Source of the DNA: Sacculina carcini
Lineage: Eukaryota > Arthropoda > Thecostraca > Sacculinidae
NCBI GenBank assembly: GCA_916048095.2
Contig: OU696594.1
Span: forward strand, 3,199,281 to 3,263,280
Length of the DNA stretch: 64,000 nt
Direction: 5' to 3'
The stretch's first letter is position 1; every line of letters begins with the position of its first letter. The translations under genes and the position numbers were made by a program. The notes under the pieces were generated by a model, which did no database searches, was not told the DNA's origin, and saw only the letters and a program-made list of their open reading frames with translations. Positions 11,435 to 44,921 of this stretch are shown piece by piece.

Positions 11435-11560
11435 CGTTCGTATTACTCGAAATGTCCGCAACACCGCACGAATGACGCAATTAAACCGCAACGAGTCCAA
11501 GGACGCAAAAAGCAGCAGCAACGAGCCACAGACCAACGATTAGCAGATTAGCCTTTGATA

Positions 11561-13456: not shown

Positions 13457-13479
13457 TTATTTTTAAAATATTTCAAAAT

Positions 13480-16217: not shown

Positions 16218-16969
16218 TATAACAAAGTTATAATCAGACCAGTTTTCTATCTGTCAGTTTACTCAGTTTTCTTTCTCTCTCCTTCTCAGTTTACGTTCGC
16301 GTTCTTTCGCGGCCTGCTTGTGCAGCTGTCGTTAGGCTAATTTATGTGTTAGGGTGACGTCAGTAGTACACTGCCCCTGATATGCTTGGCAACGTGTGAC
16401 CGTTGATTAATTATCTTTTTTGTATGTCTGACTTGGCTGAGCAGATCCTGGCAACACGCCTGTGTACTGTCAGATCGTGTTTAGAAATAGCTCGCAACTA
16501 GGTTGGCAGCCGAACTGTTTGCCCGGTGAGATTCAGTGTGGCACATTGAGCCGACGACCTGTGGTCGTGGGTATATATACCTGTGTTGTACTAACAATAA
16601 GGGGGATGATACTAGAGACTGGAGACGCTAGAGATACTAGGTTCACTAACGATAGGGCAGTCAAGATGTGACACTAACAACAGGGGTACTTTGGCTGTGC
16701 TTGTTGGTGGGTCAGTTAGTTTGGTTGGACTGTCGACGTGCGAGATAGGACTCACCACTCACTCAGGCAAGCCGTAATTAATTCATTAGATTTAAGAATA
16801 ACTTTAACGTAGATTGACTGATTGCTGAAAATATACAATTCAACTTCGACTGGGTGATCATTATTTGTTATCGCGGAACACAACATCAAGAGGAACTATC
16901 AAGACTTCACGATCAGCCAAACGAAGATCAACATAACAACATATAATTATTATTATCACAACCGTTACA
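16218..16969 (+). mobile_element. LTR, copy 1 (752 bp)
   Basis: Matches 48216-48879 along its length and 42445-42935 for its first part. It starts TATAACAAAGTTATAATC and ends in ...CGTTACA, followed by TT and a primer-binding-site-like TGGTGCCGTGACCC. A TATA-like GTATATATACC lies near 16570 and a CRE-like GTGACGTCAG near 16353. The LTR is followed by only about 50 bases of leader before the viral sequence of unit 1. Confidence 0.75.
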
Positions 16970-16971: not shown

Positions 16972-16989
16972 TGGTGCCGTGACCCGGAT
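16972..16989 (+). promoter_or_regulatory. Primer-binding site of the LTR element
   Basis: TGGTGCCGTGACCCGGAT begins with TGG (complement of a tRNA CCA end) two bases after the LTR terminus, the normal position of the minus-strand primer site. The tRNA species was not determined. The leader continues to about 17020, where it meets viral sequence. Confidence 0.6.
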
Positions 16990-17020
16990 ATCGCCGCCTC
17001 GCACGGTGGCCAGGTGCCAC

Positions 17021-18883
17021 AGATTGAATCTACTCGCAGCTCTCATGGCCGCAGAGGGCGGTATGTCCTTTATCGGGTTGCGAAATCTCAAAGCCAGCAC
17101 TGTCCGCTGAATATAGCCCACCACACCGTCGTAGTCGAAACTCCTTCTCAAAAACTCTCCCCTGGACCTGCTGAAGTGCGTTTTGTTGGCGTTGACCTCG
17201 TAGCCCAGGAGTTCATAATATTCACAAATCTTGGCCGCATCGCTCAGTTTCTGTACTCCAAACAAAATGTCGTCGCCCTGTGCTACCACCTTACAGACGG
17301 AGATCTGGCGACCCTCGCGCTCATTTATGATTCTCAAGATGGCACGGAATGAGCAGATGTTGAGTAGCGTGTCCAGTAGCGCGGTCCAACGCCACCCGCT
17401 AGGGATGCCGTTTCCCCACTCCCACTGAGTAGAACCCAGCTTGACTGACGGACACAGGTCCCTGAAGCTACGCATCAAGCTATCCCAGACCGCTTGGTAA
17501 CCTTCCAGGTCGACCCCGTCTACCGCCATTCTCCTACTCGTCTCTTCCCGCAGTGTGTCAAGCATGCGCAGAATCGTCGTCTTAGATTGGTTATAGTCAA
17601 ACCGGGACTGGTCGAGTGGCACCTTGATCCACCGGGTGTCACGCATGAATCGGACCAGTTCCTGGTCGATCTCCTCGTTTCCTCGGTTGCCCGCGAACAG
17701 TGTGGAGGTCTTGCTCCCGTAGAAGCCGCCCTCCACGACTTGACTCAGAAAATCCATCTTACGGAACACCGCGTTGCCGGCCTTCACCACCCCTCTCACC
17801 TTGCCGGCCTCGCTCTTCTGCAATACAGACAGGGTGTCCCGTATATCCGTCTTGAGATCGTTAACAATATCATCGTCGCTGTACACCACCGCGTCATACG
17901 CCTTTTGCCTGCCGGCGCGTTTGCGTTTACCATCTACATCACAATACGCCACCTGTCCGTCACCGGCCCTGCCGCGGGTCCAGCTGCCGGCGTGCGCCCA
18001 GTCTCCGATCCCAAGCAACCTGTCTTGCGGCGGCGTGGTCCACTCATCACCCATCAGCCGTTTAAGCTCATCCGCCATCATCTGATCGAACGCCTCGCTG
18101 CTCAAAATGCTACCCCCGCTCGGCCTGGGCGTCACCAGCCATCTCTTGCTACTGTCCTCCAGGGCGCTCAAACCTTCATACTCTCGGTACCCCCAGAAGG
18201 TTTCCCAATAGCAGAAGTCGCGCCAACTTACGCTGATGTGGTCTCCCCCCAGCTTCGCGGCTGTGGTGACTTCTTTTAATCCGGCTGCTATATCCAGGTG
18301 ACATTTGCCGCTGAAGATCTCCTCGTACAATCGAAATACCCTCCAGATGTTCGAGGCACGGCGCGCACCTACCAGGGCCAGAGCCAGATGCATAGAATCG
18401 AAAAAAAGAGAGGTCACGGTGCCGCAAAAACCGCACCCGACGCACTCTGCATGGCCCTTTTTTCTCTTGTGTATACGGAATCGTAATAAGGAATGTTGGA
18501 ACGTATCTCCGCCGTAATATAAACCCCCAAAACGGTTCACCACGAGTACAGCTTTGACATTTCTTTCGCTCCTTGTTGACAGCACTGCCCACTCTCGCCA
18601 GCATGTCAGGGGAGACGAATCGCCTCCACGACCAGCTCGAGTCCAGCTCGGCAGTTAGTCCTGGGGCGCCTGGTGATCTGGGTGGAACCGGGCAAGCGCC
18701 GGATCCGCCCCGGGCTTGGGCACCGGAGCCCCGTCCTCTGCAGTCGGCAGAGAGGCCCCCGCTGCAGTTTCCTGTTGTTCCGTAGCCTCCCTGCTCACAC
18801 CCGCCCCCCTCCCGGGGCCGCCGCGGTTTTTTCGACCTTGGCACGGAGCAGCTCTGTGCATGTCGGCCATGTCTGAACGGCAC
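17021..18883 (-). pseudogene. Viral RNA-dependent RNA polymerase, unit 1
   Basis: Palm-domain polymerase of a dsRNA virus. The core frame covers 17021-18585 and shows motif A DQSRFD, motif B SGWRWTALLDTLLN, motif C QGDD, motif D LLGYEVNANKT and motif E EFLRRSF, with an upstream F-like KVRGVVKAGN. The N-terminal part lies in another frame (18176-18883), the -1 frame of the capsid ORF, because this unit has one extra A near 18533, so the product is broken. At the C-terminus the frame leaves viral sequence at 17021 and reads into retrotransposon leader. The viral 3' end is therefore truncated about 80 codons after motif C. Confidence 0.85.
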
Positions 18884-20187
18884 TGTGCCATTATCGATTC
18901 GGACGTGATGGACGCGTAATACTCAAACCTACTGGCGATCTGATTGCGAGGTGTGACTACGTCCGTGATCATCGAGGACATCGCCTCTCCCGCCATCGCC
19001 AGTGCGTAAATACCTTCGTCATCGTACATGTATCGTCTAATGTTCAGGCCCCACGTCACGTACGCGTCGCGTGTGGCTGCATTCGGGCGTGAAGGCTCCC
19101 ACCCGGCTCTGTTGTATAGCTCTCTGGTCACGCTCCCTTGCCACTTGAACGCCAGTCCTGCATTTGGCCGCCTGTTAACGGAGGACAGATAGGTCAGATG
19201 CCTGGCACAGGTCATGACCCGTAATCTGTCGACGATGCCACGAGCATTCTCCGTTGCGGCATCTAGCGACACAGGGGCGGGGATCGCCCACCGGGCCATG
19301 ACCCCGCCGATAGCGGCGCCACTCTGCCATGTCCACAAGGACCGCAAAGACTTGTCCGCCGGGCCGGCGGCGTTGAGAGTCATTTCTGAGTAGACGTCGC
19401 GGCGTCGGCCTGTAGCAGTGGGTTCTATCTCACGCGCCGTGGACGCCGTCCAGGTAAAACGGATAAATTCTGAATGAATTTTCTCCTTTATGAAATTTGG
19501 CAATGATATGCCGTTCCCAGATGTTCTTAAGATGAATGCCATGGCCTCATCGCGGCGGCCCGCGGGTACCATCCACGGCACGGCAACTTCGTCCGTCACG
19601 ACTGCGTAGCTCTTCCACACTTCTAAGAGACTGCGCATGGAGTGCCCTCGCAAGACCGCGTCGCGGGTGCCGGATTCGCGGACACGGTCAAGTAGATGAT
19701 TATCTTCATCATTGAAGACTTCGTACTGAATCACTCTAGCTCCAGTCAAGATCTCGACGAGCGGATTCCATGAGCCTACCCCGAACGCTGGGTGATTCAT
19801 CGCGTCATCACGGCACAATGGCACGTGGTCCAGCGAAGAGACGGAAGAGTCTCGGAGGTAGGTAGCCTCCTGGGGACCAGTGATAGGTCTAGGCCTGGTG
19901 CCGTGCATCCGCTTGGAGAACCAGACAGGTGCGTTGGTTGTATATATTGTCTCTGGGTCAGTGCCCGGCGGCGGTGCCGCGAGCCGAACGGCCTCTGGCT
20001 GCGGCGCCCACCGCATGATCAGCGAGGCTTCCAGCACCGCGATCTCGGCCCAGTTGACCGGATAGCCTTGCCGGGAGGCCACCACTCTGGGGGAGAACCA
20101 GTCTTCGAAGGGTTTTTTTGGGTCTCGGAACTGGACGTTATGTCGCGTCTGATCATATCTAACAGCTCATGTGCGTCGATGGGAGCC
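18655..20187 (-). pseudogene. Viral capsid-like protein, unit 1
   Basis: Open from 20085 to the stop at 18655 (476 codons). The first 36 residues seen in the other units are out of frame here because a T run near 20113 is one base shorter. I identify it as capsid by position only: a large ORF 5' of, and overlapping, a polymerase in the -1 frame, as in monopartite dsRNA viruses. No sequence motif proves it. The C-terminal part is Gly/Ala/Pro-rich and unlike a folded domain. This is the only unit where the capsid frame stays open past the C-rich run to the end at ...FHPDHQAPQD. Confidence 0.75.
18826..18832 (-). promoter_or_regulatory. -1 ribosomal frameshift slippery site, unit 1
   Basis: The minus strand reads A AAA AAC, a canonical X XXY YYZ heptamer. 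The capsid zero frame reads CGA AAA AAC, so AAA and AAC occupy the required codon positions. The frame entered after a -1 slip is open across the capsid stop toward the polymerase. Directly downstream is a very GC-rich stretch (CCGCGGCGGCCCCGGGAG) that could form the stimulatory structure. The same heptamer is present in units 2-4. Confidence 0.8.
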
Positions 20188-21139
20188 ACGCCATGTCTGT
20201 CTTTCCCGGTATCCGCATCCCTGTATGTAACAGGCTTGAGAGTGTACGCAATAAACTGGGGCTTTTTCTACGTTCGTTACGTATGTACGTTTCTACTGCA
20301 GCGAACGCAAATACGGTAGGGACACTACCCGTGTATTATCGCCATCTCTCTTGACAAGCGAATTAATTCGGCACTGGTTGAGCTTACACGCACGCTAAAC
20401 TATAGGTCGTTGACCCCACCGGTCACGTGCGGTCATAATGTTCCTTGCGCCAGGCGCGTGGTGCCTACACTACGTATGCTCAGGTTTTACATCAAGGCTA
20501 TACAACAATTACTAAAAGTCAATGTACGTACAATAATGCATATCATATCTGCACATATCATATCTATCATATCATACCGAATCATATCTGCACATATCTA
20601 TGTATGCAGACTTCATAACAACAACAAATTTATTTTGTATAGCGCGCAGAGGCGCGAAATGGTATAAAATAATTGGACGAAAGAAAACAAAATTAAGTAG
20701 CTCAGTACGATGCATGGATATGTAATCCGTATAGAATATGTGAGACTGAATGACACTGCTTGATCTTATATTGTGTTCTTATACTGTTCTATCTGCTAAG
20801 GAAATTATATGAATGAGAGAAACAATGAAATAACTAAATTTTCAAATGTGGAAATATAGCGAAACTCTAGATAGCGAGCAGCTGGCAAGCCTACATTTAT
20901 GGTACGTCACTGGAAACGTCATCAGTGACGTCACGCTAAAGGAAAGAGTATGGGATAAATTTAGACATTGTGTCTCAACCTCGTTCAGTTCCGTGTTGGC
21001 GTGCACGATGTTATCGCGCTCTTTTTGACATTGGACTGACCAGACTTCTTTTTGACTTGGACTGACCAGACAGAGATATCTTTTTCCTTACTTGGTGAGA
21101 TTGTTGCTTGTTTATTTGTATCGTTTCCTTCTCTTCAGA
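20188..21139. other. Spacer 1: viral 5' region, LINE tail, SINE-like tail
   Basis: Left part: sequence upstream of the capsid ORF, with an open but ATG-less frame for about 30 codons. Middle: ATCATATC-type simple repeats near 20537-20600, then AACAACAACAAATTTATTTTGTATAGCGCG at 20620-20648, resembling the 3' end of CR1-like LINEs in inverse orientation. A 9-bp inverted repeat with CRE-like TGACGTCA lies at 20904-20931. Right part from about 20985: the SINE-like repeat also seen at 6880-7062, here with an imperfect internal duplication of GGACTGACCAGAC, cut at CTCTTC where the next viral unit begins. No gene seen. Confidence 0.65.
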
Positions 21140-22722
21140 AGATTGAATCTACTCGCAGCTCTCATGGCCGCAGAGGGCGGTATGTCCTTTATCGGGTTGC
21201 GAAATCTCAAAGCCAGCACTGTCCGCTGAATATAGCCCACCACACCGTCGTAGTCGAAACTCCTTCTCAAAAACTCTCCCCTGGACCTGCTGAAGTGCGT
21301 TTTGTTGGCGTTGACCTCGTAGCCCAGGAGTTCATAATATTCACAAATCTTGGCCGCATCGCTCAGTTTCTGTACTCCAAACAAAATGTCGTCGCCCTGT
21401 GCTACCACCTTACAGACGGAGATCTGGCGACCCTCGCGCTCATTTATGATTCTCAAGATGGCACGGAATGAGCAGATGTTGAGTAGCGTGTCCAGTAGCG
21501 CGGTCCAACGCCACCCGCTAGGGATGCCGTTTCCCCACTCCCACTGAGTAGAACCCAGCTTGACTGACGGACACAGGTCCCTGAAGCTACGCATCAAGCT
21601 ATCCCAGACCGCTTGGTAACCTTCCAGGTCGACCCCGTCTACCGCCATTCTCCTACTCGTCTCTTCCCGCAGTGTGTCAAGCATGCGCAGAATCGTCGTC
21701 TTAGATTGGTTATAGTCAAACCGGGACTGGTCGAGTGGCACCTTGATCCACCGGGTGTCACGCATGAATCGGACCAGTTCCTGGTCGATCTCCTCGTTTC
21801 CTCGGTTGCCCGCGAACAGTGTGGAGGTCTTGCTCCCGTAGAAGCCGCCCTCCACGACTTGACTCAGAAAATCCATCTTACGGAACACCGCGTTGCCGGC
21901 CTTCACCACCCCTCTCACCTTGCCGGCCTCGCTCTTCTGCAATACAGACAGGGTGTCCCGTATATCCGTCTTGAGATCTTTAACAATATCATCGTCGCTG
22001 TACACCACCGCGTCATACGCCTTTTGCCTGCCGGCGCGTTTGCGTTTACCATCTACATCACAATACGCCACCTGTCCGTCACCGGCCCTGCCGCGGGTCC
22101 AGCTGCCGGCGTGCGCCCAGTCTCCGATCCCAAGCAACCTGTCTTGCGGCGGCGTGGTCCACTCATCACCCATCAGCCGTTTAAGCTCATCCGCCATCAT
22201 CTGATCGAACGCCTCGCTGCTCAAAATGCTACCCCCGCTCGGCCTGGGCGTCACCAGCCATCTCTTGCTACTGTCCTCCAGGGCGCTCAAACCTTCATAC
22301 TCTCGGTACCCCCAGAAGGTTTCCCAATAGCAGAAGTCGCGCCAACTTACGCTGATGTGGTCTCCCCCCAGCTTCGCGGCTGTGGTGACTTCTTTTAATC
22401 CGGCTGCTATATCCAGGTGACATTTGCCGCTGAAGATCTCCTCGTACAATCGAAATACCCTCCAGATGTTCGAGGCACGGCGCGCACCTACCAGGGCCAG
22501 AGCCAGATGCATAGAATCGAAAAAAAGAGAGGTCACGGTGCCGCAAAAACCGCACCCGACGCACTCTGCATGGCCATTTTTTCTCTTGTGTATACGGAAT
22601 CGTAATAAGGAATGTTGGAACGTATCTCCGCCGTAATATAAACCCCCACACGGTTCACCACGAGTACAGCTTTGACATTTCTTTCGCTCCTTGTTGACAG
22701 CACTGCCCACTCTCGCCAGCAT
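21112..22722 (-). pseudogene. Viral RNA-dependent RNA polymerase, unit 2
   Basis: Longest uninterrupted polymerase frame of the array (536 codons from an internal Met). Positions: F-like region 268-285, motif A DQSRFD 331-336, motif B SGWRWTALLDTLLN 402-415, motif C GDD 443-445, motif D around 465-475, motif E 484-489. All catalytic residues are present. The last nine residues (LKRRKRYK) come from the flanking SINE-like repeat, so the true viral C-terminus is missing. Relative to the capsid, the C-rich run near 22927 is one base shorter than in unit 1, so the frame reached after a -1 slip does not connect to this ORF; the unit is broken there. Confidence 0.88.
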
Positions 22723-22912
22723 GTCAGGGGAGACGAATCGCCTCCACGACCAGCTCGGGTCCAGCTCGGCAGTTAGTCCTGGGGCTCCTGGTGATCTGGG
22801 TGGAACCGGGCAAGCGCCGGATCCGCCCCGGGCTTGGGCACCGGAGCCCCGTCCTCTGCAGTCGGCAGAGAGGCCCCCGCTGCAGTTTCCTGTTGTTCCG
22901 TAGCCTCCCTGC

Positions 22913-24292
22913 TCACACCCGCCCCCCTCCGGGGCCGCCGCGGTTTTTTCGACCTTGGCACGGAGCAGCTCTGTGCATGTCGGCCATGTCTGAACGGCAC
23001 TGTGCCATTATCGATTCGGACGTGATGGACGCGTAATACTCAAACCTACTGGCGATCTGATTGCGAGGTGTGACTACGTCCGTGATCATCGAGGACATCG
23101 CCAGTGCGTAAATACCTTCGTCATCGTACATGTATCGTCTAATGTTCAGGCCCCACGTCACGTACGCGTCGCGTGTGGCTGCATTCGGGCGTGAAGGCTC
23201 CCACCCGGCTCTGTTGTATAGCTCTCTGGTCACGCTCCCTTGCCACTTGAACGCCAGTCCTGCATTTGGCCGCCTGTTAACGGAGGACAGATAGGTCAGA
23301 TGCCTGGCACAGGTCATGACCCGTAATCTGTCGACGATGCCACGAGCATTCTCCGTTGCGGCATCTAGCGACACAGGGGCGGGGATCGCCCACCGGGCCA
23401 TGACCCCGCCGATAGCGGCGCCACTCTTCCATGTCCACAAGGACCGCAAAGACTTGTCCGCCGGGCCGGCGGCGTTGAGAGTCATTTCTGAGTAGACGTC
23501 GCGGCGTCGGCCTGTAGCAGTGGGTTCTATCTCACGCGCCGTGGACGCCGTCCAGGTAAAACGGATAAATTCTGAATGAATTTTCTCCTTTATGAAATTT
23601 GGCAATGATATGCCGTTCCCAGATGTTCTTAAGATGAATGCCATGGCCTCATCGCGGCGGCCCGCGGGTACCATCCACGGCACGGCAACTTCGTCCGTCA
23701 CGACTGCGTAGCTCTTCCACACTTCTAAGAGACTGCGCATGGAGTGCCCTCGCAAGACCGCGTCGCGGGTGCCGGATTCGCGGACACGGTCAAGTAGATG
23801 ATTATCTTCATCATTGAAGACTTCGTACTGAATCACTCTAGCTCCAGTCAAGATCTCGACGAGCGGATTCCATGAGCCTACCCCGAACGCTGGGTGATTC
23901 ATCGCGTCATCACGGCACAATGGCACGTGGTCCAGCGAAGAGACGGAAGAGTCTCGGAGGTAGGTAGCCTCCTGGGGACCAGTGATAGGTCTAGGCCTGG
24001 TGCCGTGCATCCGCTTGGAGAACCAGACAGGTGCGTTGGTTGTATATATTGTCTCTGGGTCAGTGCCCGGCGGCGGTGCCGCGAGCCGAACGGCCTCTGG
24101 CTGCGGCGCCCACCGCATGATCAGCGAGGCTTCCAGCACCGCGATCTCGGCCCAGTTGACCGGATAGCCTGGCCGGGAGGCCACCACTCTGGGGGAGAAC
24201 CAGTCTTCGAAGAGTTTTTTTTGGGTCTCGGAACTGGACGTTATGTCGCGTCTGATCATATCTAACAGCTCATGTGCGTCGATGGGAGCCAC
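22913..24292 (-). pseudogene. Viral capsid-like protein, unit 2
   Basis: 459 codons in frame from VAPIDAHELLD (codon GTG; no ATG is in frame upstream before a TAG). The slippery heptamer is at codons 449-450. After it the frame ends early at GGGRV because of the shorter C run near 22927; in unit 1 the frame continues about 54 codons further. This unit also lacks 15 bases present in the others (residues AGEAM), lost between two CATCGCC direct repeats near 23095, which looks like slippage or sequence-directed deletion. Function is inferred from position only. Confidence 0.75.
22943..22949 (-). promoter_or_regulatory. -1 frameshift slippery site, unit 2
   Basis: AAAAAAC on the minus strand; the capsid start at 24292 lies exactly 448 codons before the AAA at 22948, confirming the zero-frame register of the heptamer. 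Confidence 0.8.
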
Positions 24293-25242
24293 GCCATGTC
24301 TGTCTTTCCCGGTATCCGCATCCCTGTATGTAACAGGCTTGAGAGTGTACGCAATAAACTGGGGCTTTTTCTACGTTCGTTACGTATGTACGTTTCTACT
24401 GCAGCGAACGCAAATACGGTAGGGACACTACCCGTGTATTATCGCCATCTCTCTTGACAAGCGAATTAATTCGGCACTGGTTGAGCTTACACGCACGCTA
24501 AACTATAGGTCGTTGACCCCACCGGTCACGTGCGGTCATAATGTTCCTTGCGCCAGGCGCGTGGTGCCTACACTACGTATGCTCAGGTTTTACATCAAGG
24601 CTATACAACAATTACTAAAAGTCAATGTACGTACAATAATGCATATCATATCTGCACATATCATATCTATCATATCATACCGAATCATATCTGCACATAT
24701 CTATGTATGCAGACTTCATAACAACAACAAATTTATTTTGTATAGCGCGCAGAGGCGCGAAATGGTATAAAATAATTGGACGAAAGAAAACAAAATTAAG
24801 TAGCTCAGTACGATGCATGGATATGTAATCCGTATAGAATATGTGAGACTGAATGACACTGCTTGATCTTATATTGTGTTCTTATACTGTTCTATCTGCT
24901 AAGGAAATTATATGAATGAGAGAAACAATGAAATAACTAAATTTTCAAATGTGGAAATATAGCGAAACTCTAGATAGCGAGCAGCTGGCAAGCCTACATT
25001 TATGGTACGTCACTGGAAACGTCATCAGTGACGTCACGCTAAAGGAAAGAGTATGGGATAAATTTAGACATTGTGTCTCAACCTCGTTCAGTTCCGTGTT
25101 GGCGTGCACGATGTTATCGCGCTCTTTTTGACATTGGACTGACCAGACTTCTTTTTGACTTGGACTGACCAGACAGAGATATCTTTTTCCTTACTTGGTG
25201 AGATTGTTGCTTGTTTATTTGTATCGTTTCCTTCTCTTCAGA
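24293..25242. other. Spacer 2, same content as spacer 1
   Basis: Essentially identical to 20188-21139, including the CRE-containing inverted repeat at 25007-25034 and the internally duplicated SINE-like tail. No gene seen. Confidence 0.7.
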
Positions 25243-26825
25243 AGATTGAATCTACTCGCAGCTCTCATGGCCGCAGAGGGCGGTATGTCCTTTATCGGGT
25301 TGCGAAATCTCAAAGCCAGCACTGTCCGCTGAATATAGCCCACCACACCGTCGTAGTCGAAACTCCTTCTCAAAAACTCTCCCCTGGACCTGCTGAAGTG
25401 CGTTTTGTTGGCGTTGACCTCGTAGCCCAGGAGTTCATAATATTCACAAATCTTGGCCGCATCGCTCAGTTTCTGTACTCCAAACAAAATGTCGTCGCCC
25501 TGTGCTACCACCTTACAGACGGAGATCTGGCGACCCTCGCGCTCATTTATGATTCTCAAGATGGCACGGAATGAGCAGATGTTGAGTAGCGTGTCCAGTA
25601 GCGCGGTCCAACGCCACCCGCTAGGGATGCCGTTTCCCCACTCCCACTGAGTAGAACCCAGCTTGACTGACGGACACAGGTCCCTGAAGCTACGCATCAA
25701 GCTATCCCAGACCGCTTGGTAACCTTCCAGGTCGACCCCGTCTACCGCCATTCTCCTACTCGTCTCTTCCCGCAGTGTGTCAAGCATGCGCAGAATCGTC
25801 GTCTTAGATTGGTTATAGTCAAACCGGGACTGGTCGAGTGGCACCTTGATCCACCGGGTGTCACGCATGAATCGGACCAGTTCCTGGTCGATCTCCTCGT
25901 TTCCTCGGTTGCCCGCGAACAGTGTGGAGGTCTTGCTCCCGTAGAAGCCGCCCTCCACGACTTGACTCAGAAAATCCATCTTACGGAACACCGCGTTGCC
26001 GGCCTTCACCACCCCTCTCACCTTGCCGGCCTCGCTCTTCTGCAATACAGACAGGGTGTCCCGTATATCCGTCTTGAGATCGTTAACAATATCATCGTCG
26101 CTGTACACCACCGCGTCATACGCCTTTTGCCTGCCGGCGCGTTTGCGTTTACCATCTACATCACAATACGCCACCTGTCCGTCACCGGCCCTGCCGCGGG
26201 TCCAGCTGCCGGCGTGCGCCCAGTCTCCGATCCCAAGCAACCTGTCTTGCGGCGGCGTGGTCCACTCATCACCCATCAGCCGTTTAAGCTCATCCGCCAT
26301 CATCTGATCGAACGCCTCGCTGCTCAAAATGCTACCCCCGCTCGGCCTGGGCGTCACCAGCCATCTCTTGCTACTGTCCTCCAGGGCGCTCAAACCTTCA
26401 TACTCTCGGTACCCCCAGAAGGTTTCCCAATAGCAGAAGTCGCGCCAACTTACGCTGATGTGGTCTCCCCCCAGCTTCGCGGCTGTGGTGACTTCTTTTA
26501 ATCCGGCTGCTATATCCAGGTGACATTTGCCGCTGAAGATCTCCTCGTACAATCGAAATACCCTCCAGATGTTCGAGGCACGGCGCGCACCTACCAGGGC
26601 CAGAGCCAGATGCATAGAATCGAAAAAAAGAGAGGTCACGGTGCCGCAAAAACCGCACCCGACGCACTCTGCATGGCCCTTTTTTCTCTGGTGTATACGG
26701 AATCGTAATAAGGAATGTTGGAACGTATCTCCGCCGTAATATAAACCCCCACACGGTTCACCACGAGTACAGCTTTGACATTTCTTTCGCTCCTTGTTGA
26801 CAGCACTGCCCACTCTCGCCAGCAT
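25215..26825 (-). pseudogene. Viral RNA-dependent RNA polymerase, unit 3
   Basis: 536 codons, nearly identical to unit 2, with all motifs A-E intact. It differs by substitutions such as Lys to Gln in the N-terminal RIHQRKK and Asn for Lys at DDDIVND. It has the same short C run (near 27030) separating it from the -1 frame of the capsid ORF, and the same chimeric C-terminus reading into the SINE-like repeat. Confidence 0.88.
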
Positions 26826-27015
26826 GTCAGGGGAGACGAATCGCCTCCACGACCAGCTCGAGTCCAGCTCGGCAGTTAGTCCTGGGGCGCCTGGTGATCT
26901 GGGTGGAACCGGGCAAGCGCCGGATCCGCCCCGGGCTTGGGCACCGGAGCCCCGTCCTCTGCAGTCGGCAGAGAGGCCCCCGCTGCAGTTTCCTGTTGTT
27001 CCGTAGCCTCCCTGC

Positions 27016-28410
27016 TCACACCCGCCCCCCTCCGGGGCCGCCGCGGTTTTTTCGACCTTGGCACGGAGCAGCTCTGTGCATGTCGGCCATGTCTGAACGG
27101 CACTGTGCCATTATCGATTCGGACGTGATGGACGCGTAATACTCAAACCTACTGGCGATCTGATTGCGAGGTGTGACTACGTCCGTGATCATCGAGGACA
27201 TCGCCTCTCCCGCCATCGCCAGTGCGTAAATACCTTCGTCATCGTACATGTATCGTCTAATGTTCAGGCCCCACGTCACGTACGCGTCGCGTGTGGCTGC
27301 ATTCGGGCGTGAAGGCTCCCACCCGGCTCTGTTGTATAACTCTCTGGTCACGCTCCCTTGCCACTTGAACGCCAGTCCTGCATTTGGCCGCCTGTTAACG
27401 GAGGACAGATAGGTCAGATGCCTGGCACAGGTCATGACCCGTAATCTGTCGACGATGCCACGAGCATTCTCCGTTGCGGCATCTAGCGACACAGGGGCGG
27501 GGATCGCCCACCGGGCCATGACCCCGCCGATAGCGGCGCCACTCTGCCATGTCCACAAGGACCGCAAAGACTTGTCCGCCGGGCCGGCGGCGTTGAGAGT
27601 CATTTCTGAGTAGACGTCGCGGCGTCGGCCTGTAGCAGTGGGTTCTATCTCACGCGCCGTGGACGCCGTCCAGGTAAAACGGATAAATTCTGAATGAATT
27701 TTCTCCTTTATGAAATTTGGCAATGATATGCCGTTCCCAGATGTTCTTAAGATGAATGCCATGGCCTCATCGCGGCGGCCCGCGGGTACCATCCACGGCA
27801 CGGCAACTTCGTCCGTCACGACTGCGTAGCTCTTCCACACTTCTAAGAGACTGCGCATGGAGTGCCCTCGCAAGACCGCGTCGCGGGTGCCGGATTCGCG
27901 GACACGGTCAAGTAGATGATTATCTTCATCATTGAAGACTTCGTACTGAATCACTCTAGCTCCAGTCAAGATCTCGACGAGCGGATTCCATGAGCCTACC
28001 CCGAACGCTGGGTGATTCATCGCGTCATCACGGCACAATGGCACGTGGTCCAGCGAAGAGACGGAAGAGTCTCGGAGGTAGGTAGCCTCCTGGGGACCAG
28101 TGATAGGTCTAGGCCTGGTGCCGTGCATCCGCTTGGAGAACCAGACAGTTGCGTTGGTTGTATATATTGTCTCTGGGTCAGTGCCCGGCGGCGGTGCCGC
28201 GAGCCGAACGGCCTCTGGCTGCGGCGCCCACCGCATGATCAGCGAGGCTTCCAGCACCGCGATCTCGGCCCAGTTGACCGGATAGCCTGGCCGGGAGGCC
28301 ACCACTCTGGGGGAGAACCAGTCTTCGAAGAGTTTTTTTTGGGTCTCGGAACTGGACGTTATGTCGCGTCTGATCATATCTAACATCTCATGTGCGTCGA
28401 TGGGAGCCAC
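27016..28410 (-). pseudogene. Viral capsid-like protein, unit 3
   Basis: 464 codons from VAPIDAHEMLD; contains the AGEAM segment missing in unit 2. It ends at GGGRV for the same reason as unit 2. Otherwise it is almost identical to the other capsid ORFs. The unbroken body of more than 440 codons in units 2-4 shows that integration or amplification is recent, or that the frame is constrained; substitution ratios would be needed to separate these. Confidence 0.75.
27046..27052 (-). promoter_or_regulatory. -1 frameshift slippery site, unit 3
   Basis: Same A AAA AAC heptamer in the capsid zero frame followed by the same GC-rich stretch as in the other units. Confidence 0.8.
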
Positions 28411-29330
28411 GCCATGTCTGTCTTTCCCGGTATCCGCATCCCTGTATGTAACAGGCTTGAGAGTGTACGCAATAAACTGGGGCTTTTTCTACGTTCGTTA
28501 CGTATGTACGTTTCTACTGCAGCGAACGCAAATACGGTAGGGACACTACCCGTGTATTATCGCCATCTCTCTTGACAAGCGAATTAATTCGGCACTGGTT
28601 GAGCTTACACGCACGCTAAACTATAGGTCGTTGACCCCACCGGTCACGTGCGGTCACAATGTTCCTTGCGCCAGGCGCGTGGTGCCTACACTACGTATGC
28701 TCAGGTTTTACATCAAGGCTATACAACAATTACTAAAAGTCAATGTACGTACAATAATGCATATCATATCTGCACATATCATATCTATCATATCATACCG
28801 AATCATATCTGCACATATCTATGTATGCAGACTTCATAACAACAACAAATTTATTTTGTATAGCGCGCAGAGGCGCGAAATGGTATAAAATAATTGGACG
28901 AAAGAAAACAAAATTAAGTAGCTCAGTACGATGCATGGATATGTAATCCGTATAGAATATGTGAGACTGAATGACACTGCTTGATCTTATATTGTGTTCT
29001 TATACTGTTCTATCTGCTAAGGAAATTATATGAATGAGAGAAACAATGAAATAACTAAATTTTCAAATGTGGAAATATAGCGAAACTCTAGATAGCGAGC
29101 AGCTGGCAAGCCTACATTTATGGTACGTCACTGGAAACGTCATCAGTGACGTCACGCTAAAGGAAAGAGTATGGGATAAATTTAGACATTGTGTCTCAAC
29201 CTCGTTCAGTTCCGTGTTGGCGTGCACGATGTTATCGCGCTCTTTTTGACATTGGACTGACCAGACTTATCTTTTTCCTTACTTGGTGAGATTGTTGCTT
29301 GTTTATTTGTATCGTTTCCTTCTCTTCAGA
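28411..29330. other. Spacer 3
   Basis: As spacers 1 and 2, but the SINE-like tail lacks the internal duplication (29263-29275 reads straight through), like the right end of the array at 35930-35950. No gene seen. Confidence 0.7.
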
Positions 29331-29964
29331 AGATTGAATCTACTCGCAGCTCTCATGGCCGCAGAGGGCGGTATGTCCTTTATCGGGTTGCGAAATCTCA
29401 AAGCCAGCACTGTCCGCTGAATATAGCCCACCACACCGTCGTAGTCGAAACTCCTTCTCAAAAACTCTCCCCTGGACCTGCTTAAGTGCGTTTTGTTGGC
29501 GTTGACCTCGTAGCCCAGGAGTTCATAATATTCACAAATCTTGGCCGCATCGCTCAGTTTCTGTACTCCAAACAAAATGTCGTCGCCCTGTGCTACCACC
29601 TTACAGACGGAGATCTGGCGACCCTCGCGCTCATTTATGATTCTCAAGATGGCACGGAATGAGCAGATGTTGAGTAGCGTGTCCAGTAGCGCGGTCCAAC
29701 GCCACCCGCTAGGGATGCCGTTTCCCCACTCCCACTGAGTAGAACCCAGCTTGACTGACGGACACAGGTCCCTGAAGCTACGCATCAAGCTATCCCAGAC
29801 CGCTTGGTAACCTTCCAGGTCGACCCCGTCTACCGCCATTCTCCTACTCGTCTCTTCCCGCAGTGTGTCAAGCATGCGCAGAATCGTCGTCTTAGATTGG
29901 TTATAGTCAAACCGGGACTGGTCGAGTGGCACCTTGATCCACCGGGTGTCACGCATGAATCGGA
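29303..29964 (-). pseudogene. Viral polymerase, unit 4, C-terminal half
   Basis: Catalytic half of the fourth polymerase copy, from just before motif A to the truncated C-terminus; motifs A (DQSRFD), B, C (QGDD), D and E are present. One change is visible after motif D (NKTHL instead of NKTHF). It is separated from its N-terminal half (32548-33478) by the retroelement at 29965-32547, inserted between the codons for Val and Arg about 14 residues before motif A. Confidence 0.85.
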
Positions 29965-31881
29965 TGGGCCGTCAGCCGGGTTGATGTTGGTCGGAATATA
30001 CATCATGCGGTACGGGAACTGGCGCACGTGCCGTAGAAACAACGGAGTCCAAGCTAGTGGCAAACGTCGCCGAGCCAAGTTATATGCCACCCCCACATTG
30101 TCAGTGGCAATGAGGGGGCAGCGCGCTCCGGCCCTGTAGGCTGCCACCAAGGCAATGAGGGCCGCGCGCAACTCGGCTAGGTAGATTTGCCGCGCTGTCA
30201 CCGGCAGATGTACGGTGAACTTGCGATGTTTGGTTGCAATGCCAGTGGCCTCTGTAGACGCGTCGCTAGCGACGATGGCATCTATTGGAGGCGGCATGTC
30301 CAGTGGTTTGGCATTGCGCAAGATGGGCACCAGCTGTGCCGCGCGAGCTGGGTAATGGAGAGTCGTAGTAACCAGGGCTGTCGGCAATCGCAGAGCACGA
30401 AGCACGAAGGCCAAATAGCCGGCGAGGCGTTGGCGCCACTCGAACGGCCGATGTGGTGCGGCGCGCAGGGCGACGGCCAGAGCCCGCCGGATGCCTGGTT
30501 GCAAATCGATTGTGGGCCGAGCCCCCAAGGTGAGGGCGAACCCGAGGAAGAGGAGCCGTTGGGTGGGCCGCCACACACACTTTGAGGGCTTCACGGCCAC
30601 CCCCATGTCGCGGAGGAATTCCTCAACGCAGTTCAGTTGGGGGGCCGGCCCCAACACCAGGAAGTCGTCGAGATAGGGGAGCACCCGCACCGGCGCGCAA
30701 GCACGTTCGATGGCCGAGGCCAGCGAACGGCTCACCGTTTGCATAAGCGCCGGCGCGGTGCTCAACCCCATTGGCAGTCGAGTCCATTCGTATAGCCGTC
30801 CGCGATATGCGACGCGGAGAAGGGCGGCCAGGCCCTCGTGGATGGGCAGTTGATAAAACCCGTGGCGTAGATCGAATTTGATGGCTTGCCACGAGGGCCG
30901 GCCATGTAGCACCGTCAATACGTCCGACACCGCCGGCAACTTCATTGTGAAGCGCGGCAAGTGGGCGGTTAATGGACTCAAATCGTAGAGAACGCGACAC
31001 GTGCCGTCGTCTTTCGGTATTGTAAATAGCCGGAAGGTGGGCCCGTGGCGGTCATACACTTCTCGTAGGATGCCGCCAGTGGTGAGCGAGGCCATGACGC
31101 GATCCATGGTGCGTGTGGCTCGGGTTACGTGCCAGTGATGGCGTTGACTCGTTGGAATGCGCGTGCGTAGACCTGTTGCCAGCATGCGTTGCACTTGTTG
31201 TGTATGGCGCGGGTCCGGCGGCATTGGTTCGAGTTCGCTGAAGTTTGGCGGCTGAACATCCGTTGGCGATGCTGTGTTGTCGGCGGATGTGTGAAGAAAA
31301 GCCAGCAGGCTCGGCGGCTCACCCGAGTCAGAGTCACCATGGACTGATCTCGGAGGCCTGGTCCGGCCCCGGCGTGCTTGTGGCTCATCATCGGAGCTTG
31401 TCGAAGTGTCAGAGGCTGTGTCGTTCATCTCGGGGTCGTCGAGTATGTCCCAAGGGGCCGACATGGACCGCCACCATGTGGGGTCGTCGGCGGCGCTATC
31501 CAGCGCATCCTCCGGGCCGGTATCGGGCAATTCCAGAGCCTCCAGCGCTTCCGCCGCCGCCGTGACGTCCTCCAGGCCCAAGGGGTCGTCGACTACGTCG
31601 GCGACCCAACTGGGGACGTCCGGCGACGGCGGTGGCTGGGCTGGCGGGTGCACGGTCGTCAAGTGGTGCGACCGGAGCAGCTCCACATCGGGGAGCGCTG
31701 AGTGAGGGACTTGCTCGGCTCGTTGCGCACCCGCCAAGAGCAAGTCCCACACGCCGTCCTCACTGGCGAGGGCGCGCTCGAGCGCGTCGACCTCGCCCAG
31801 ATTGGCCCGATCCGGCACTTCCGCGAGCCCCGCGACTGGGTCCGGCAGGGGCTCCAGCGGCCGAGGAACGGCGTGGCGCAT
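29965..31881 (-). CDS. Pol (reverse transcriptase, RNase H) of GC-rich retroelement, truncated
   Basis: About 640 codons of element sequence, then the frame runs into viral DNA. Residues 1-245 are acidic, Ser/Pro-rich and without known domains. RT spans roughly 250-450: RVLYDLSPL, KFDLRHGFYQLPI (catalytic Asp about 337), LPMGLSTAP, and YLDDFLVLG (about 403-411). A short RNase H follows: ASDAS (Asp about 540), AELRAAL (Glu about 570), ATDN (Asp about 594), ending NINPADGPS. This RT-RNase H layout with a compact RNase H recalls DIRS/Ngaro-type elements and, for the closing motif, hepadnavirus-like RNase H, more than Gypsy or BEL. I cannot decide without a phylogeny. The Pol frame is +1 relative to Gag. 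Confidence 0.75.
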
Positions 31882-32461
31882 GACTACGATCTTTGACGAC
31901 GTCGGGAGGGACCGGCAGTTGGAGACCCTGGATCTCTTGCACGCGAGATGATTGCCGAGCTGCGTCCCACCCGAGCAGTGCTGCAGTCAGAACCGTCACC
32001 AATCGTTGTTTGAAGAAGTGACGGTCTGCGTCGTCGAGATGATCGTAGTAGCGGCTTATTAGCAACAAGCATTCAATTTCTGCAATGTCGCGGCTACTCA
32101 GTTTGTAACGGTTGTCCCGTAAGTGAGCTTTGAGGCGGCGGGTCCAACCTTGAAGCACCTCGTCGGTGGGCAGGGTGGACGGAAGGCTGACGTCGTCGTC
32201 GTCCTTGCCGTCGCTATCCTCGTCGTCAGCAAAGGCTACGAGTTTGGCGAGCGACGGAGTGGTTCCCACAGCGGTGTCTTGCGTGATGCGGGCCGCTTGA
32301 AGTTCTTCGACCGCTTTAAAAAGCGGTTGGGCCCACAACGGTGCCTTATGCGGTTTACTCACCCGCCGTGGGTGTTGCGGCGTAGACAAATGCAACACTG
32401 GACCCTGTAATTCGGCTTGAGTATCGGCCGTGGGCGTAGCAGACGGATCTTGGGTCGCCAT
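31760..32461 (-). CDS. Gag-like protein of GC-rich retroelement
   Basis: 233 codons from MATQDPSATPTADTQ. The N-terminal part is hydrophilic with an acidic DDEDSDGKDDDD block near residue 80; the middle (TDEVLQGWTRRLKAHLRDN...) looks helical; the C-terminus is Gly/Arg/Ser-rich, plausible for RNA binding. It overlaps the Pol start by 122 bases. No CCHC knuckle is present. The Gag role is inferred from position upstream of, and overlap with, Pol. Confidence 0.55.
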   Translation of the reverse strand: MATQDPSATPTADTQAELQGPVLHLSTPQHPRRVSKPHKAPLWAQPLFKAVEELQAARITQDTAVGTTPSLAKLVAFADDEDSDGKDDDDVSLPSTLPTDEVLQGWTRRLKAHLRDNRYKLSSRDIAEIECLLLISRYYDHLDDADRHFFKQRLVTVLTAALLGWDAARQSSRVQEIQGLQLPVPPDVVKDRSHAPRRSSAAGAPAGPSRGARGSAGSGQSGRGRRARARPRQ

Positions 32462-32547
32462 CGACTAAGATAGTAGACGAGCTTGGCGGAGAGGCGCTAC
32501 AAAACTATGCGCACCTACTCAGTCTGTACACATCCACGGTTTCCACC

Positions 32548-33497
32548 CCAGTTCCTGGTCGTTCTCCTCGTTTCCTCGGTTGCCCGCGAACAGTGTGGAG
32601 GTCTTGCTCCCGTAGAAGCCGCCCTCCACGACTTGACTCAGAAAATCCATCTTACGGAACACCGCGTTGCCGGCCTTCACCACCCCTCTCACCTTGCCGG
32701 CCTCGCTCTTCTGCAATACAGACAGGGTGTCCCGTATATCCGTCTTGAGATCTTTAACAATATCATCGTCGCTGTACACCACCGCGTCATACGCCTTTTG
32801 CCTGCCGGCGCGTTTGCGTTTACCATCTACATCACAATACGCCACCTGTCCGTCACCGGCCCTGCCGCGGGTCCAGCTGCCGGCGTGCGCCCAGTCTCCG
32901 ATCCCAAGCAACCTGTCTTGCGGCGGCGTGGTCCACTCATCACCCATCAGCCGTTTAAGCTCATCCGCCATCATCTGATCGAACGCCTCGCTGCTCAAAA
33001 TGCTACCCCCGCTCGGCCTGGGCGTCACCAGCCATCTCTTGCTACTGTCCTCCAGGGCGCTCAAACCTTCATACTCTCGGTACCCCCAGAAGGTTTCCCA
33101 ATAGCAGAAGTCGCGCCAACTTACGCTGATGTGGTCTCCCCCCAGCTTCGCGGCTGTGGTGACTTCTTTTAATCCGGCTGCTATATCCAGGTGACATTTG
33201 CCGCTGAAGATCTCCTCGTACAATCGAAATACCCTCCAGATGTTCGAGGCACGGCGCGCACCTACCAGGGCCAGAGCCAGATGCATAGAATCGAAAAAAA
33301 GAGAGGTCACGGTGCCGCAAAAACCGCACCCGACGCACTCTGCATGGCCCTTTTTTCTCTTGTGTATACGGAATCGTAATAAGGAATGTTGGAACGTATC
33401 TCCGCCGTAATATAAACCCCCAAAACGGTTCACCACGAGTACAGCTTTGACATTTCTTTCGCTCCTTGTTGACAGCACTGCCCACTCTCGCCAGCAT
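32548..33497 (-). pseudogene. Viral polymerase, unit 4, N-terminal half
   Basis: N-terminal half of the fourth polymerase, up to the retroelement insertion point. The core frame begins around 33478 and, as in unit 1, an extra A near 33425 shifts it relative to the overlapping frame that starts at 33497. It matches the other units through the F-like KVRGVVKAGN region to GNRGNEE, then ends in inserted DNA. A T for A change near 32562 changes one residue relative to units 1-3. Confidence 0.85.
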
Positions 33498-33687
33498 GTC
33501 AGGGGAGACGAATCGCCTCCACGACCAGCTCGAGTCCAGCTCGGCAGTTAGTCCTGGGGCGCCTGGTGATCTGGGTGGAACCGGGCAAGCGCCGGATCCG
33601 CCCCGGGCTTGGGCACCGGAGCCCCGTCCTCTGCAGTCGGCAGAGAGGCCCCCGCTGCAGTTTCCTGTTGTTCCGTAGCCTCCCTGC

Positions 33688-35082
33688 TCACACCCGCCCC
33701 CTCCCGGGGCCGCCGCGGTTTTTTCGACCTTGGCACGGAGCAGCTCTGTGCATGTCGGCCATGTCTGAACGGCACTGTGCCATTATCGATTCGGACGTGA
33801 TGGACGCGTAATACTCAAACCTACTGGCGATCTGATTGCGAGGTGTGACTACGTCCGTGATCATCGAGGACATCGCCTCTCCCGCCATCGCCAGTGCGTA
33901 AATACCTTCGTCATCGTACATGTATCGTCTAATGTTCAGGCCCCACGTCACGTACGCGTCGCGTGTGGCTGCATTCGGGCGTGAAGGCTCCCACCCGGCT
34001 CTGTTGTATAGCTCTCTGGTCACGCTCCCTTGCCACTTGAACGCCAGTCCTGCATTTGGCCGCCTGTTAACGGAGGACAGATAGGTCAGATGCCTGGCAC
34101 AGGTCATGACCCGTAATCTGTCGACGATGCCACGAGCATTCTCCGTTGCGGCATCTAGCGACACAGGGGCGGGGATCGCCCACCGGGCCATGACCCCGCC
34201 GATAGCGGCGCCACTCTGCCATGTCCACAAGGACCGCAAAGACTTGTCCGCCGGGCCGGCGGCGTTGAGAGTCATTTCTGAGTAGACGTCGCGGCGTCGG
34301 CCTGTAGCAGTGGGTTCTATCTCACGCGCCGTGGACGCCGTCCAGGTAAAACGGATAAATTCTGAATGAATTTTCTCCTTTATGAAATTTGGCAATGATA
34401 TGCCGTTCCCAGATGTTCTTAAGATGAATGCCATGGCCTCATCGCGGCGGCCCGCGGGTACCATCCACGGCACGGCAACTTCGTCCGTCACGACTGCGTA
34501 GCTCTTCCACACTTCTAAGAGACTGCGCATGGAGTGCCCTCGCAAGACCGCGTCGCGGGTGCCGGATTCGCGGACACGGTCAAGTAGATGATTATCTTCA
34601 TCATTGAAGACTTCGTACTGAATCACTCTAGCTCCAGTCAAGATCTCGACGAGCGGATTCCATGAGCCTACCCCGAACGCTGGGTGATTCATCGCGTCAT
34701 CACGGCACAATGGCACGTGGTCCAGCGAAGAGACGGAAGAGTCTCGGAGGTAGGTAGCCTCCTGGGGACCAGTGATAGGTCTAGGCCTGGTGCCGTGCAT
34801 CCGCTTGGAGAACCAGACAGGTGCGTTGGTTGTATATATTGTCTCTGGGTCAGTGCCCGGCGGCGGTGCCGCGAGCCGAACGGCCTCTGGCTGCGGCGCC
34901 CACCGCATGATCAGCGAGACTTCCAGCACCGCGATCTCGGCCCAGTTGACCGGATAGCCTGGCCGGGAGGCCACCACTCTGGGGGAGAACCAGTCTTCGA
35001 AGAGTTTTTTTTGGGTCTCGGAACTGGACGTTATGTCGCGTCTGATCATATCTAACAGCTCATGTGCGTCGATGGGAGCCAC
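33688..35082 (-). pseudogene. Viral capsid-like protein, unit 4
   Basis: 464 codons from VAPIDAHELLD to GRGRV. The C-rich run here is C5-T-C3, versus C6-T-C3 in unit 1 and C6-T-C2 in units 2 and 3. So the premature end has the same cause but a different base is missing. Otherwise nearly identical to the other copies. Confidence 0.75.
33718..33724 (-). promoter_or_regulatory. -1 frameshift slippery site, unit 4
   Basis: Same heptamer and register as in units 1-3. Confidence 0.8.
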
Positions 35083-36053
35083 GCCATGTCTGTCTTTCCC
35101 GGTATCCGCATCCCTGTATGTAACAGGCTTGAGAGTGTACGCAATAAACTGGGGCTTTTTCTACGTTCGTTACGTATGTACGTTTCTACTGCAGCGAACG
35201 CAAATACGGTAGGGACACTACCCGTGTATTATCGCCATCTCTCTTGACAAGCGAATTAATTCGGCACTGGTTGAGCTTACACGCACGCTAAACTATAGGT
35301 CGTTGACTTCACCGGTCACGTGCGGTCATAATGTTCCTTGCGCCAGGCGCGTGGTGCCTACACTACGTATGCTCAGGTTTTACATCAAGGCTATACAACA
35401 ATTACTAAAAGTCAATGTACGTACAATAATGCATATCATATCTGCACATATCATATCTATCATATCATACCGAATCATATCTGCACATATCTATGTATGC
35501 AGACTTCATAACAACAACAAATTTATTTTGTATAGCGCGCAGAGGCGCGAAATGGTATAAAATAATTGGACGAAAGAAAACAAAATTAAGTAGCTCAGTA
35601 CGATGCATGGATATGTAATCCGTATAGAATATGTGAGACTGAATGACACTGCTTGATCTTATATTGTGTTCTTATACTGTTCTATCTGCTAGGGAAATTA
35701 TATGAATGAGAGAAACAATGAAATAACTAAATTTTCAAATGTGGAAATATAGCGAAACTCTAGATAGCGAGCAGCTGGCAAGCCTACATTTATGGTACGT
35801 CACTGGAAACGTCATCAGTGACGTCACGCTAAAGGAAAGAGTATGGGATAAATTTAGACATTGTGTCTCAACCTCGTTCAGTTCCGTGTTGGCGTGCACG
35901 ATGTTATCGCGCTCTTTTTGACATTGGACTGACCAGACTTATCTTTTTCCTTACTTGGTGAGATTGTTGCTTGTTTATTTGTATCGTTTCCTTCTCTTCT
36001 GCTCTTCATCGTCATCTCTCCCTCGCTGCAGCATCTGACCGCAATATCGTGTA
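35083..36053. other. Right edge of the array: spacer 4 and complete SINE-like tail
   Basis: Spacer content as before, but the SINE-like repeat continues past CTCTTC into TGCTCTTCATCG...CGCAATATCGTGTAA, exactly as in the copy at 6886-7062. It marks the original right boundary of the viral insertion. LINE copy 2 begins immediately after, at 36054. Confidence 0.7.
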
Positions 36054-36418
36054 AACATCTACTTCGTGTTACCTTATCTTGCCTATTCCCTCTCGTTTTT
36101 GCGTATACTTTTGTTTTTGCTTGTGTGCACTTACATTTTATTTCTAGCTTATTTCTTTCTGGTCCCTTCGCGCCCTTGTATCATTCTGGCGCTATACGTT
36201 TGTTGTTGTTTTTTTCTCTTTGTCCCTTTTTTGGTTAATATGGGTTTTGAAGATTCGGGGACTCGCATGGTCAGGGGATGACCCGACCAGGCGAGACGGA
36301 GGCACCAGGTCCCCCTGGGACCTGGAAGGGGCGCAAGAGGCGTCGAGGGAGGAAACTTAGTTCTACGGAGCATCACTCTGATGATTCCTGTCGGAGTGAT
36401 TGATTCAATGGTAATGAC

Positions 36419-37696
36419 TTGGCATCGAAATCGGATATGAAGGCGGCTAATTCAAAAGGGAAGATGACCACTGAAAACGGAAATGGAAACGCTGTACCCA
36501 GGGTACGTGAGTCTAAAACATCATACGTAGACCCAAACGGCTCTTACGTAGTGATCTATTCCACCAATGATAATTTTTCGTTCAAGCGCATTGGTTATTT
36601 TTGGTCATGTGCTCAACTGTAGTGCTATTTTGGCAAGGTTAAATTTGAATGTCAGACGCCGTTCGATGGGTCTTTCATTGTGAGGACCAAAAACGAGAAA
36701 CAAAGTCGTAGGCTGTTGAAATTGACCGAGTTCTGCCAGCAACCAGTAATTGTCACCACTGACAACATCCGCAACTCATCGAAGGGAGTGATTTTCGCTA
36801 CTGAGTTGCGTGATCTCGCTGAAGATGCTATCTGTGAAGGGCTAAGTTCTGAGGGAGTGAGCAGCGTGCGTCGCGTGACATCATTCCGCGACGGTCAGCG
36901 CAGACCCACGCCGCTGCTCATTCTTACTTTCAACAGTGCCACCAGACCAACAGAACTATTCTCAGGCTATATAAAATACGACGTCCTAGTTTTTATACAA
37001 AATCCGCTCAGGTGCTTCAAATGCCAGCGGTATGGTCACGGATCCCGCAACTGTCGCGGTGAGGCTTTGTGTGCACGGTGCGGCGAATGCGAACACGGTG
37101 ATCAGCCGTGTACCGCTGCCCGTCACTGTGTGAACTGTCGCAGCACAGAACACTCCGCCGGACATAGTGACTGCCCAGTGTGGCAAAAGGAAAAAAAGAT
37201 TTGTGCTATCCAGGCCAACCAGGGAATTTCTTTTATTGAGGCGAGAAAAATGTACGAGAGGCAGTGTCCACAGACACAGCTGTCCTACGCAGTTGCGACC
37301 AGCACACCGGTCGAACGCGTCTCAGTGAGTGTGCAGACTGATCCCATTCCTCAGCTGCCGCCACTGATGAAAGCTCAGCGAATGCAAACATCGACAACAG
37401 AACAGTGCCAAACCCAATCCACTGGAACAGCACAAATACCACCAGTCCTTAAAAAGTTCAGTGCCACCACCAACAATATCAGTGTGACCAAACCATCCAC
37501 AAGTACCGCTAATTGTGTCCAGGACCACAGTTACAGTGGTCAGAAAAAAGCGGCGGCAAAGCGCTCGTCGCGCCGACGGTCCAAGTCGGCAACCCCCGAC
37601 ATCAACATCGTCGATGTGCCTCCTGATGACCCGGGGAGCACGACATCGTCGATGTGCCCGCGGATGACCGGGGGAGTATCGTATGATAGTTTTTAA
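36419..37696 (+). pseudogene. I-type LINE ORF1 (Gag-like, CCHC), copy 2
   Basis: N-terminal piece 36419-36622 ends in the same TAG as copy 1. The main frame runs 36680-37696 (338 codons) with the same three zinc-knuckle motifs (CFKCQRYGHGSRNC and following) and stops at GGVSYDSF. It would bind element RNA in a nucleoprotein particle. It is non-functional as a full-length protein unless the N-terminal stop is bypassed. Confidence 0.75.
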
Positions 37697-37714
37697 TTTT
37701 TAAAGTATTTAAAA

Positions 37715-40131: not shown

Positions 40132-40145
40132 AGTATGAGTATGAG

Positions 40146-42935: not shown

Positions 42936-42941
42936 AATTCA

Positions 42942-44838: not shown

Positions 44839-44921
44839 GTTTTATTTAGCAAATATATCTATATTTTGTTCTAACAATTGAGCAGTTTTCTCTTTCTGTG
44901 TAGCAGTCAAAGGATTCATAT

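Follow-up and report, generated by a model that had tools for sequence, protein, structure and literature searches.

A fourfold array of toti-like virus sequence in Sacculina carcini and its probable capture by an LTR retrotransposon

The entry of RNA viruses without a reverse transcriptase into genomes is mostly inferred from neighbouring retrotransposons, and a locus in Sacculina carcini raises the question of how such a virus came to be copied into cellular DNA and then to be present four times over. The locus lies within a window of 64,000 nucleotides (nt), the whole stretch analysed here (contig OU696594.1, positions 3,199,281 to 3,263,280), in which a four-unit array at 17021-35999 carries sequence of a toti-like virus, with the virus sense on the minus strand, and adjoins a long terminal repeat (LTR)-like repeat followed by a primer-binding site (PBS). 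We consider it probable that this locus is a toti-like endogenous viral element (EVE) captured by an LTR retrotransposon at second strand transfer and then duplicated in place to four copies.

Architecture and viral identity of the array

Self-comparison of the window resolved four direct head-to-tail repeats starting at 17021, 21140, 25243 and 29331, with a last common base at 35999, confirming the four tandem units spaced by about 4.1 kb that an earlier note on this DNA had described; the copy number is that of the assembly. Units 1 to 3 are 4119 nt, 4103 nt and 4088 nt long and differ by 8-10 substitutions per pair. For unit 4, whose two pieces were compared separately, the counts against units 1, 2 and 3 are 1 plus 9, 13 and 15 substitutions, respectively. 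The resulting identities of 99.57-99.84%, indels aside, support the recent amplification of near-identical units that had also been proposed. On the minus strand each unit consists of about 0.87 kb that is not recognisably viral, an upstream open reading frame (ORF) of 485-490 codons and an overlapping frame for an RNA-dependent RNA polymerase (RdRp), in that order. The parts of the array are:

17021-21139, minus strand: unit 1, with frames displaced by small indels in comparison with units 2 and 3
21140-25242, minus strand: unit 2, with the upstream ORF (22916-24370, 485 codons) and the RdRp frame (21115-23007, 631 codons) open
24371-25242, no strand assigned: part of unit 2 that is not recognisably viral (872 nt, with counterparts in the other units); the viral edge lies within or before it
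25243-29330, minus strand: unit 3, with the upstream ORF (27019-28488, 490 codons) and the RdRp frame (25218-27110, 631 codons) open
29331-29964, minus strand: RdRp-end piece of unit 4, from self-comparison and Pfam
29965-32547, minus strand: later insert of 2583 nt splitting unit 4 (Pfam RVT_1 4.7e-14, DNA_pol_viral_C 3.2e-7)
32548-35999, minus strand: upstream piece of unit 4, with the upstream ORF (33691-35160, 490 codons) open and the RdRp frame shifted by a small indel
35878-36055, plus strand: host repeat with a second copy at 6895-7061 (90%), which crosses the repeat breakpoint at the right array end only

The RdRp is genuine, with Pfam matches to RdRP_4 (1.2-1.4e-13) and RdRP_1 (1.6-6.8e-10) in all four units, and the polymerase motifs singled out in the earlier note (DQSRFD, SGWRWTALLDTLLN and QGDD) are present and align with those of relatives. 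Among 7997 scored candidates we found 75 RdRp homologues at E≤1e-3, and those named as viruses are toti-like viruses, nearly all from insects judging by their names (Shuangao, Hubei 20 and 21, Solenopsis midden virus, Linepithema humile toti-like virus 1, Corcyphos virus 2 and one "Totiviridae sp."). These homologues and the Pfam matches identify the polymerase as a viral toti-like RdRp and not that of a retrotransposon. The best relative, P0001, originates from a 7120-nt contig and is 53% identical across 96% of the query. Seven further homologues are attributed by name to the genomes of two moths, Scirpophaga incertulas and Arctia plantaginis, and belong to the same broad RdRp group; in a quick tree of 74 rows (73 of the 75 homologues plus the window sequence) the window RdRp joined P0001 at an SH-aLRT of 100, separate from the four moth rows included. 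Viral contigs gave 43 pattern matches and no relative by tblastn. The virus-like part of unit 2 can be read for up to 622 codons without a stop, compared with longest runs of at most 350 codons (mean 179) among 200 dinucleotide shuffles. Retrotransposon sequence on both flanks within one contig places the array in cellular DNA. Judged by its sequence, the array is a non-retroviral EVE from an arthropod-type toti-like virus.

The junction with the LTR-like repeat and its primer-binding site

Virus and retrotransposon meet at the left edge of the array, where three features follow one another:

16218-16969, plus strand: LTR-like repeat of 752 nt, with a TATA-like box at 16572 and the end GTTACA, pointing into the array and antisense to the virus
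16972-16989, plus strand: primer-binding site of tRNA-His type, TGGTGCCGTGACCCGGAT, 18 nt
16990-17020, minus strand: single-copy end of the viral RdRp, outside the repeat unit and adjoining the PBS, reading LWHLATVRGGD after SRFN

The LTR-like repeat could be aligned with two other, partial copies in the window, at about 42442-42949 and 48213-48880, and is separated from the PBS by the dinucleotide TT. According to the available text of the two sources, the PBS has one mismatch to the HERV-H tRNA-His PBS (PMC3253121) and to the end of human tRNA-His (PMC12217144); at up to 3 mismatches it occurs once in the window, where none would be expected. The junction between LTR element and virus is direct, the PBS ending at 16989 and viral reading starting from 16990: after these 18 nt the complement of tRNA-His goes on as TCGAACC, whereas the window goes on as ATCGCC, which is viral. 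The viral frame crosses the repeat joint as LWHLATVRGGD, resembling LWHLATVRGA of P0001, and all 12 relatives listed carry WHL, WML or WQL followed by RG at this position. We set aside an assignment of the LTR to the minus-strand Gypsy-type ORFs at 43153-45779, as the three-copy alignment and the polarity of the PBS favour a plus-strand LTR of another family.

A viral edge beside an 18-nt PBS recalls a known step of retroviral replication. In HIV-1, plus-strand strong-stop synthesis reportedly stops mainly before 1-methyladenosine 58 (m1A58) of the primer tRNA, that is after 18 nt, and tRNA-His is among the primer tRNAs listed with m1A58 in the available text of the same source (PMC13191261). 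An LTR retrotransposon with a tRNA-His primer may thus have been reverse-transcribing while viral mRNA was present, and the junction suggests that its plus-strand strong-stop DNA ended after 18 nt of the tRNA had been copied, immediately short of the blocked base A58. Instead of pairing with its own minus strand, this DNA would have taken viral sense RNA as its template, starting within the RdRp gene and proceeding towards the capsid side, and the product would have read LTR, PBS and viral antisense. The RdRp is indeed nearest the PBS and the capsid side farthest from it, as extension on viral mRNA would predict for both order and polarity. The chimera now stands in a retrotransposon-rich region, a structure that is directly visible. 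Capture at second strand transfer would be the simplest reading of this junction.

Several points weigh against that reading. It is drawn from one junction, and the tRNA comparison was made with human tRNA-His. The LTR-like repeat starts with TATAAC and not the usual TG, and no target-site duplication of the repeat was recognised. A second LTR was not found at the far side, none being recognised in the 872-nt non-viral part, so that the virus has one LTR-like repeat at its edge and is not enclosed by two LTRs with a target-site duplication. No complete element of the LTR family is present in the 64-kb window to show the usual sequence after the PBS. Finally, support for the two terminal viral codons (GD) is weak, D standing two residues past RG in 5 of the 12 relatives listed, P0001 not among them; the viral edge is therefore either exact or up to 6 nt (two codons) off the PBS. 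In the main rival explanation, the viral insert was made by another reverse transcriptase, an LTR element landed beside or in the insert and a deletion of the element's interior ended by chance at the PBS edge. Such a history would suit a region full of nested, broken retroelements in which the LTR copies are themselves fragmentary, but it needs a breakpoint no more than 0-6 nt away from where an 18-nt site ends, and we regard it as unlikely.

Duplication in place and the state of the viral frames

How one viral fragment became four copies can be read from the joints. The three internal joints are identical (...CCTTCTCTTC, AGA, AGATTGAATC...), viral codons run beyond the repeat breakpoint at the left edge only, and the host repeat held in common with 6895-7061 extends past 35999 at the right edge only. 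Since the viral codons continue only to the left and the host repeat only to the right, the array arose by in-situ duplication of one insertion, a finding that refines the amplification envisaged in the earlier note. The duplicated segment of about 4.1 kb has one limit 31 nt within the viral end and the other in the adjacent host repeat; its copies, which now number four, meet at joints with a 3-nt filler. End joining presumably made the first duplication, and unequal exchange the later ones. A reverse-transcriptase element afterwards split unit 4, as the structure of that unit makes plain. This insert contains an ORF with a reverse transcriptase and an RNase H-type domain, has a GC content of about 64% and shows no target-site duplication around it; we take it to be DIRS-like.

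A ready-made array, integrated as a viral concatemer or rolling-circle DNA, would share the head-to-tail order, and circular viral DNA carrying LTR hybrids has been reported from mosquito cells in the available text of PMC6797480. The same non-viral stretch is present in every unit, however, and both array edges continue into the single-copy flank of the outer units; on this flank continuity we rejected a concatemer origin as scarcely credible. The very high inter-unit identity might also be expected if there were fewer true copies, multiplied by the assembler or by merged haplotypes, but the units differ by substitutions, by length differences of 15-30 nt and by the 2.6-kb insert in unit 4, and an artefact of this kind is quite improbable. 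As a separate observation, the Scirpophaga incertulas predicted protein P0028 contains RdRp pieces matching residues 171-517 of P0002 followed by pieces matching 9-180, hence head to tail, which possibly reflects an independent tandem duplication of a toti-like EVE.

What was duplicated is only part of a viral genome. Virus-like sequence amounts to at most about 3.2 kb per unit, and P0001 and six named virus relatives come from contigs of 6659-7804 nt. Within the units the RdRp leaves viral reading after SRFN; when the single-copy stretch on the left is included, it corresponds to P0001 up to about residue 525 of 789, so that even at its longest edge it is some 264 residues short and lacks about its last (C-terminal) third. 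The description of the units as near-complete genomes consequently had to be given up. The upstream ORF stands in the capsid position, and "capsid" is a positional label: the ORF had no match in PDB or in Pfam at E 10, and none of 7995 scored candidates in the protein database reached E≤1e-3, with full-length capsids falling outside the length filter. Comparison with the moth protein P0067 likewise yielded no homologue (best E value 0.53), and a single-sequence AlphaFold model had a mean predicted local distance difference test (pLDDT) score of 31 and was unusable. The two viral frames of unit 2 overlap by 95 nt (22913-23007) with the heptamer A AAA AAC inside the overlap; a -1 frameshift was considered, and the RdRp frame of unit 2 proved to be +1, not -1, to the upstream ORF.

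Units 2 and 3 alone keep both frames open. In unit 1 the frames are displaced by small indels, with open runs of 503 and 597 codons persisting, and unit 4 retains an open upstream ORF (490 codons) together with an RdRp frame that is broken by a small indel as well as by the 2583-nt insert. Differing codons comprise 1 silent and 4 replacement changes in the RdRp frame between units 2 and 3, and 2 silent and 4 replacement changes in the upstream ORF between units 3 and 4; at this level of the sequence there is no sign of protein-level conservation, and the codons are too few for proving neutrality or testing selection. With replacements in 4 of 5 and 4 of 6 codons, respectively, a defence by expressed capsid, as suggested in the earlier note, finds no support. 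Could the units nevertheless be domesticated protein-coding genes under selection? The long open frames of units 2 and 3 would fit, and one toti-like EVE of planthoppers is reported as co-opted (available text of PMC10636211), but recent duplication alone suffices for open frames, the frames are shifted or split in two of the four units, the differing codons are mostly replacements and the RdRp is without its C-terminal third. We hold domestication to be highly improbable, and a present protein function of the units is unlikely.

Antisense potential, retroelement surroundings and known systems

The LTR-like repeat points into the array with its TATA-like box, so that transcription from there would run antisense to the virus across the four copies, and the antisense-RNA idea of the earlier note becomes more concrete because the repeat lies upstream in antisense orientation. 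EVEs in loci of PIWI-interacting RNAs (piRNAs) may be recognised by two features, viral sequence in antisense to the presumed transcription and a setting rich in retroelements; here the LTR has this orientation, and 13 of the 20 flanking ORFs scanned have retroelement-type Pfam matches at E≤0.01, some of them below Pfam's cut-off. Antisense or piRNA output from the array is plausible on these grounds. A present role, in which LTR-driven antisense RNA over the four copies feeds a small-RNA pathway, is a tentative possibility, the array otherwise being neutral. The fuller proposal, that the locus records virus capture at second strand transfer, with LTR strong-stop DNA ending before tRNA-His position 58, and that the host then kept a fourfold antiviral small-RNA locus, is to our mind somewhat doubtful.

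The junction at an 18-nt PBS edge, with the polarity that was predicted, directs attention to a single definite step of virus entry and offers a searchable signature (LTR end, 18-nt PBS and viral antisense). Second-strand-transfer capture, if true, by itself sets an LTR promoter antisense over viral sequence, and would explain how a captured fragment can lie from the outset in antisense behind a promoter, an arrangement that antiviral small-RNA loci require. Should PBS-edge junctions recur among EVEs, they would represent a general route to promoter-linked antisense viral memory, made automatically. The array also shows a fast rise in EVE copy number through local duplication.

The remainder of the window contains further repeats. 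A plus-strand non-LTR retrotransposon is present in two copies (11818-16218 and 36054-42111, 94-97% identical in matched parts), on both sides of the block formed by the LTR and the array. A long open ORF of long interspersed nuclear element (LINE) type, 1103 amino acids (aa) with endonuclease and reverse transcriptase, occupies 54761-58072; as an ORF at 54764-58072 it has 177 homologues, the best being 57-58% identical among the matches listed. On the minus strand at 7358-11536, a LINE-type reverse transcriptase ORF (898 aa) lies beside a PHD finger ORF (408 aa), the two perhaps forming one element, and an AATTC repeat is located at 7060-7087. An Rfam tRNA match at 2541-2613 (39.7 bits), not called by ARAGORN, overlaps the start of a dispersed repeat (copies at 2595-2837, 4003-4202, 38779-39057 and 59561-59639) that is perhaps a tRNA-derived short interspersed nuclear element. 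Long simple-repeat tracts are found at 1111-2047, 3162-3811, 54281-54591 and 58101-58241, and some yield spurious long ORFs.

Our literature search, with subscription papers mostly outside its scope, found no report of a PBS-edge virus junction, which is not proof of absence, nor the combination of such a junction with a fourfold near-identical array. The study of Geuking et al. 2009 is reportedly the work on lymphocytic choriomeningitis virus and the intracisternal A particle (LCMV-IAP). As far as the available texts go, precedents exist both for an RNA virus captured by an LTR element (PMC5177903) and for tandem totivirus-like capsid copies in yeasts (PMC2805616).

The first of these, eBxnv-1 of Bursaphelenchus xylophilus, resembles our locus in that a non-retroviral RdRp is joined to an LTR retrotransposon: a nodavirus-like RdRp lies inside a Bel/Pao LTR element, and its authors propose copy-choice during reverse transcription (PMC5177903). 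Unlike the Sacculina locus, it has two LTRs with a PBS and pol around the viral sequence, is a single locus and derives from another virus family, and the available text describes neither a PBS-edge junction nor a tandem array. In Aedes aegypti cells, an EVE of cell fusing agent virus (CFAV) with Ty3-gypsy sequence and hybrids of LTR and viral DNA likewise place a virus fragment next to LTR retrotransposon sequence, but the fragment is of a flavivirus and stands beside LTR and gag; small-RNA output has been shown in Aedes, where retrotransposon-dense EVE loci give antisense piRNAs (available text of PMC6797480). Toti-like EVEs are described as ubiquitous in three planthoppers in the available part of PMC10636211. 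The totivirus-like capsid genes of Debaryomyces hansenii and Pichia stipitis share with our array a tandem duplication after integration, whereas they stem from yeast viruses, comprise two to four capsid gene copies (divergent in P. stipitis) and are expressed, with no LTR edge described in the available text (PMC2805616).

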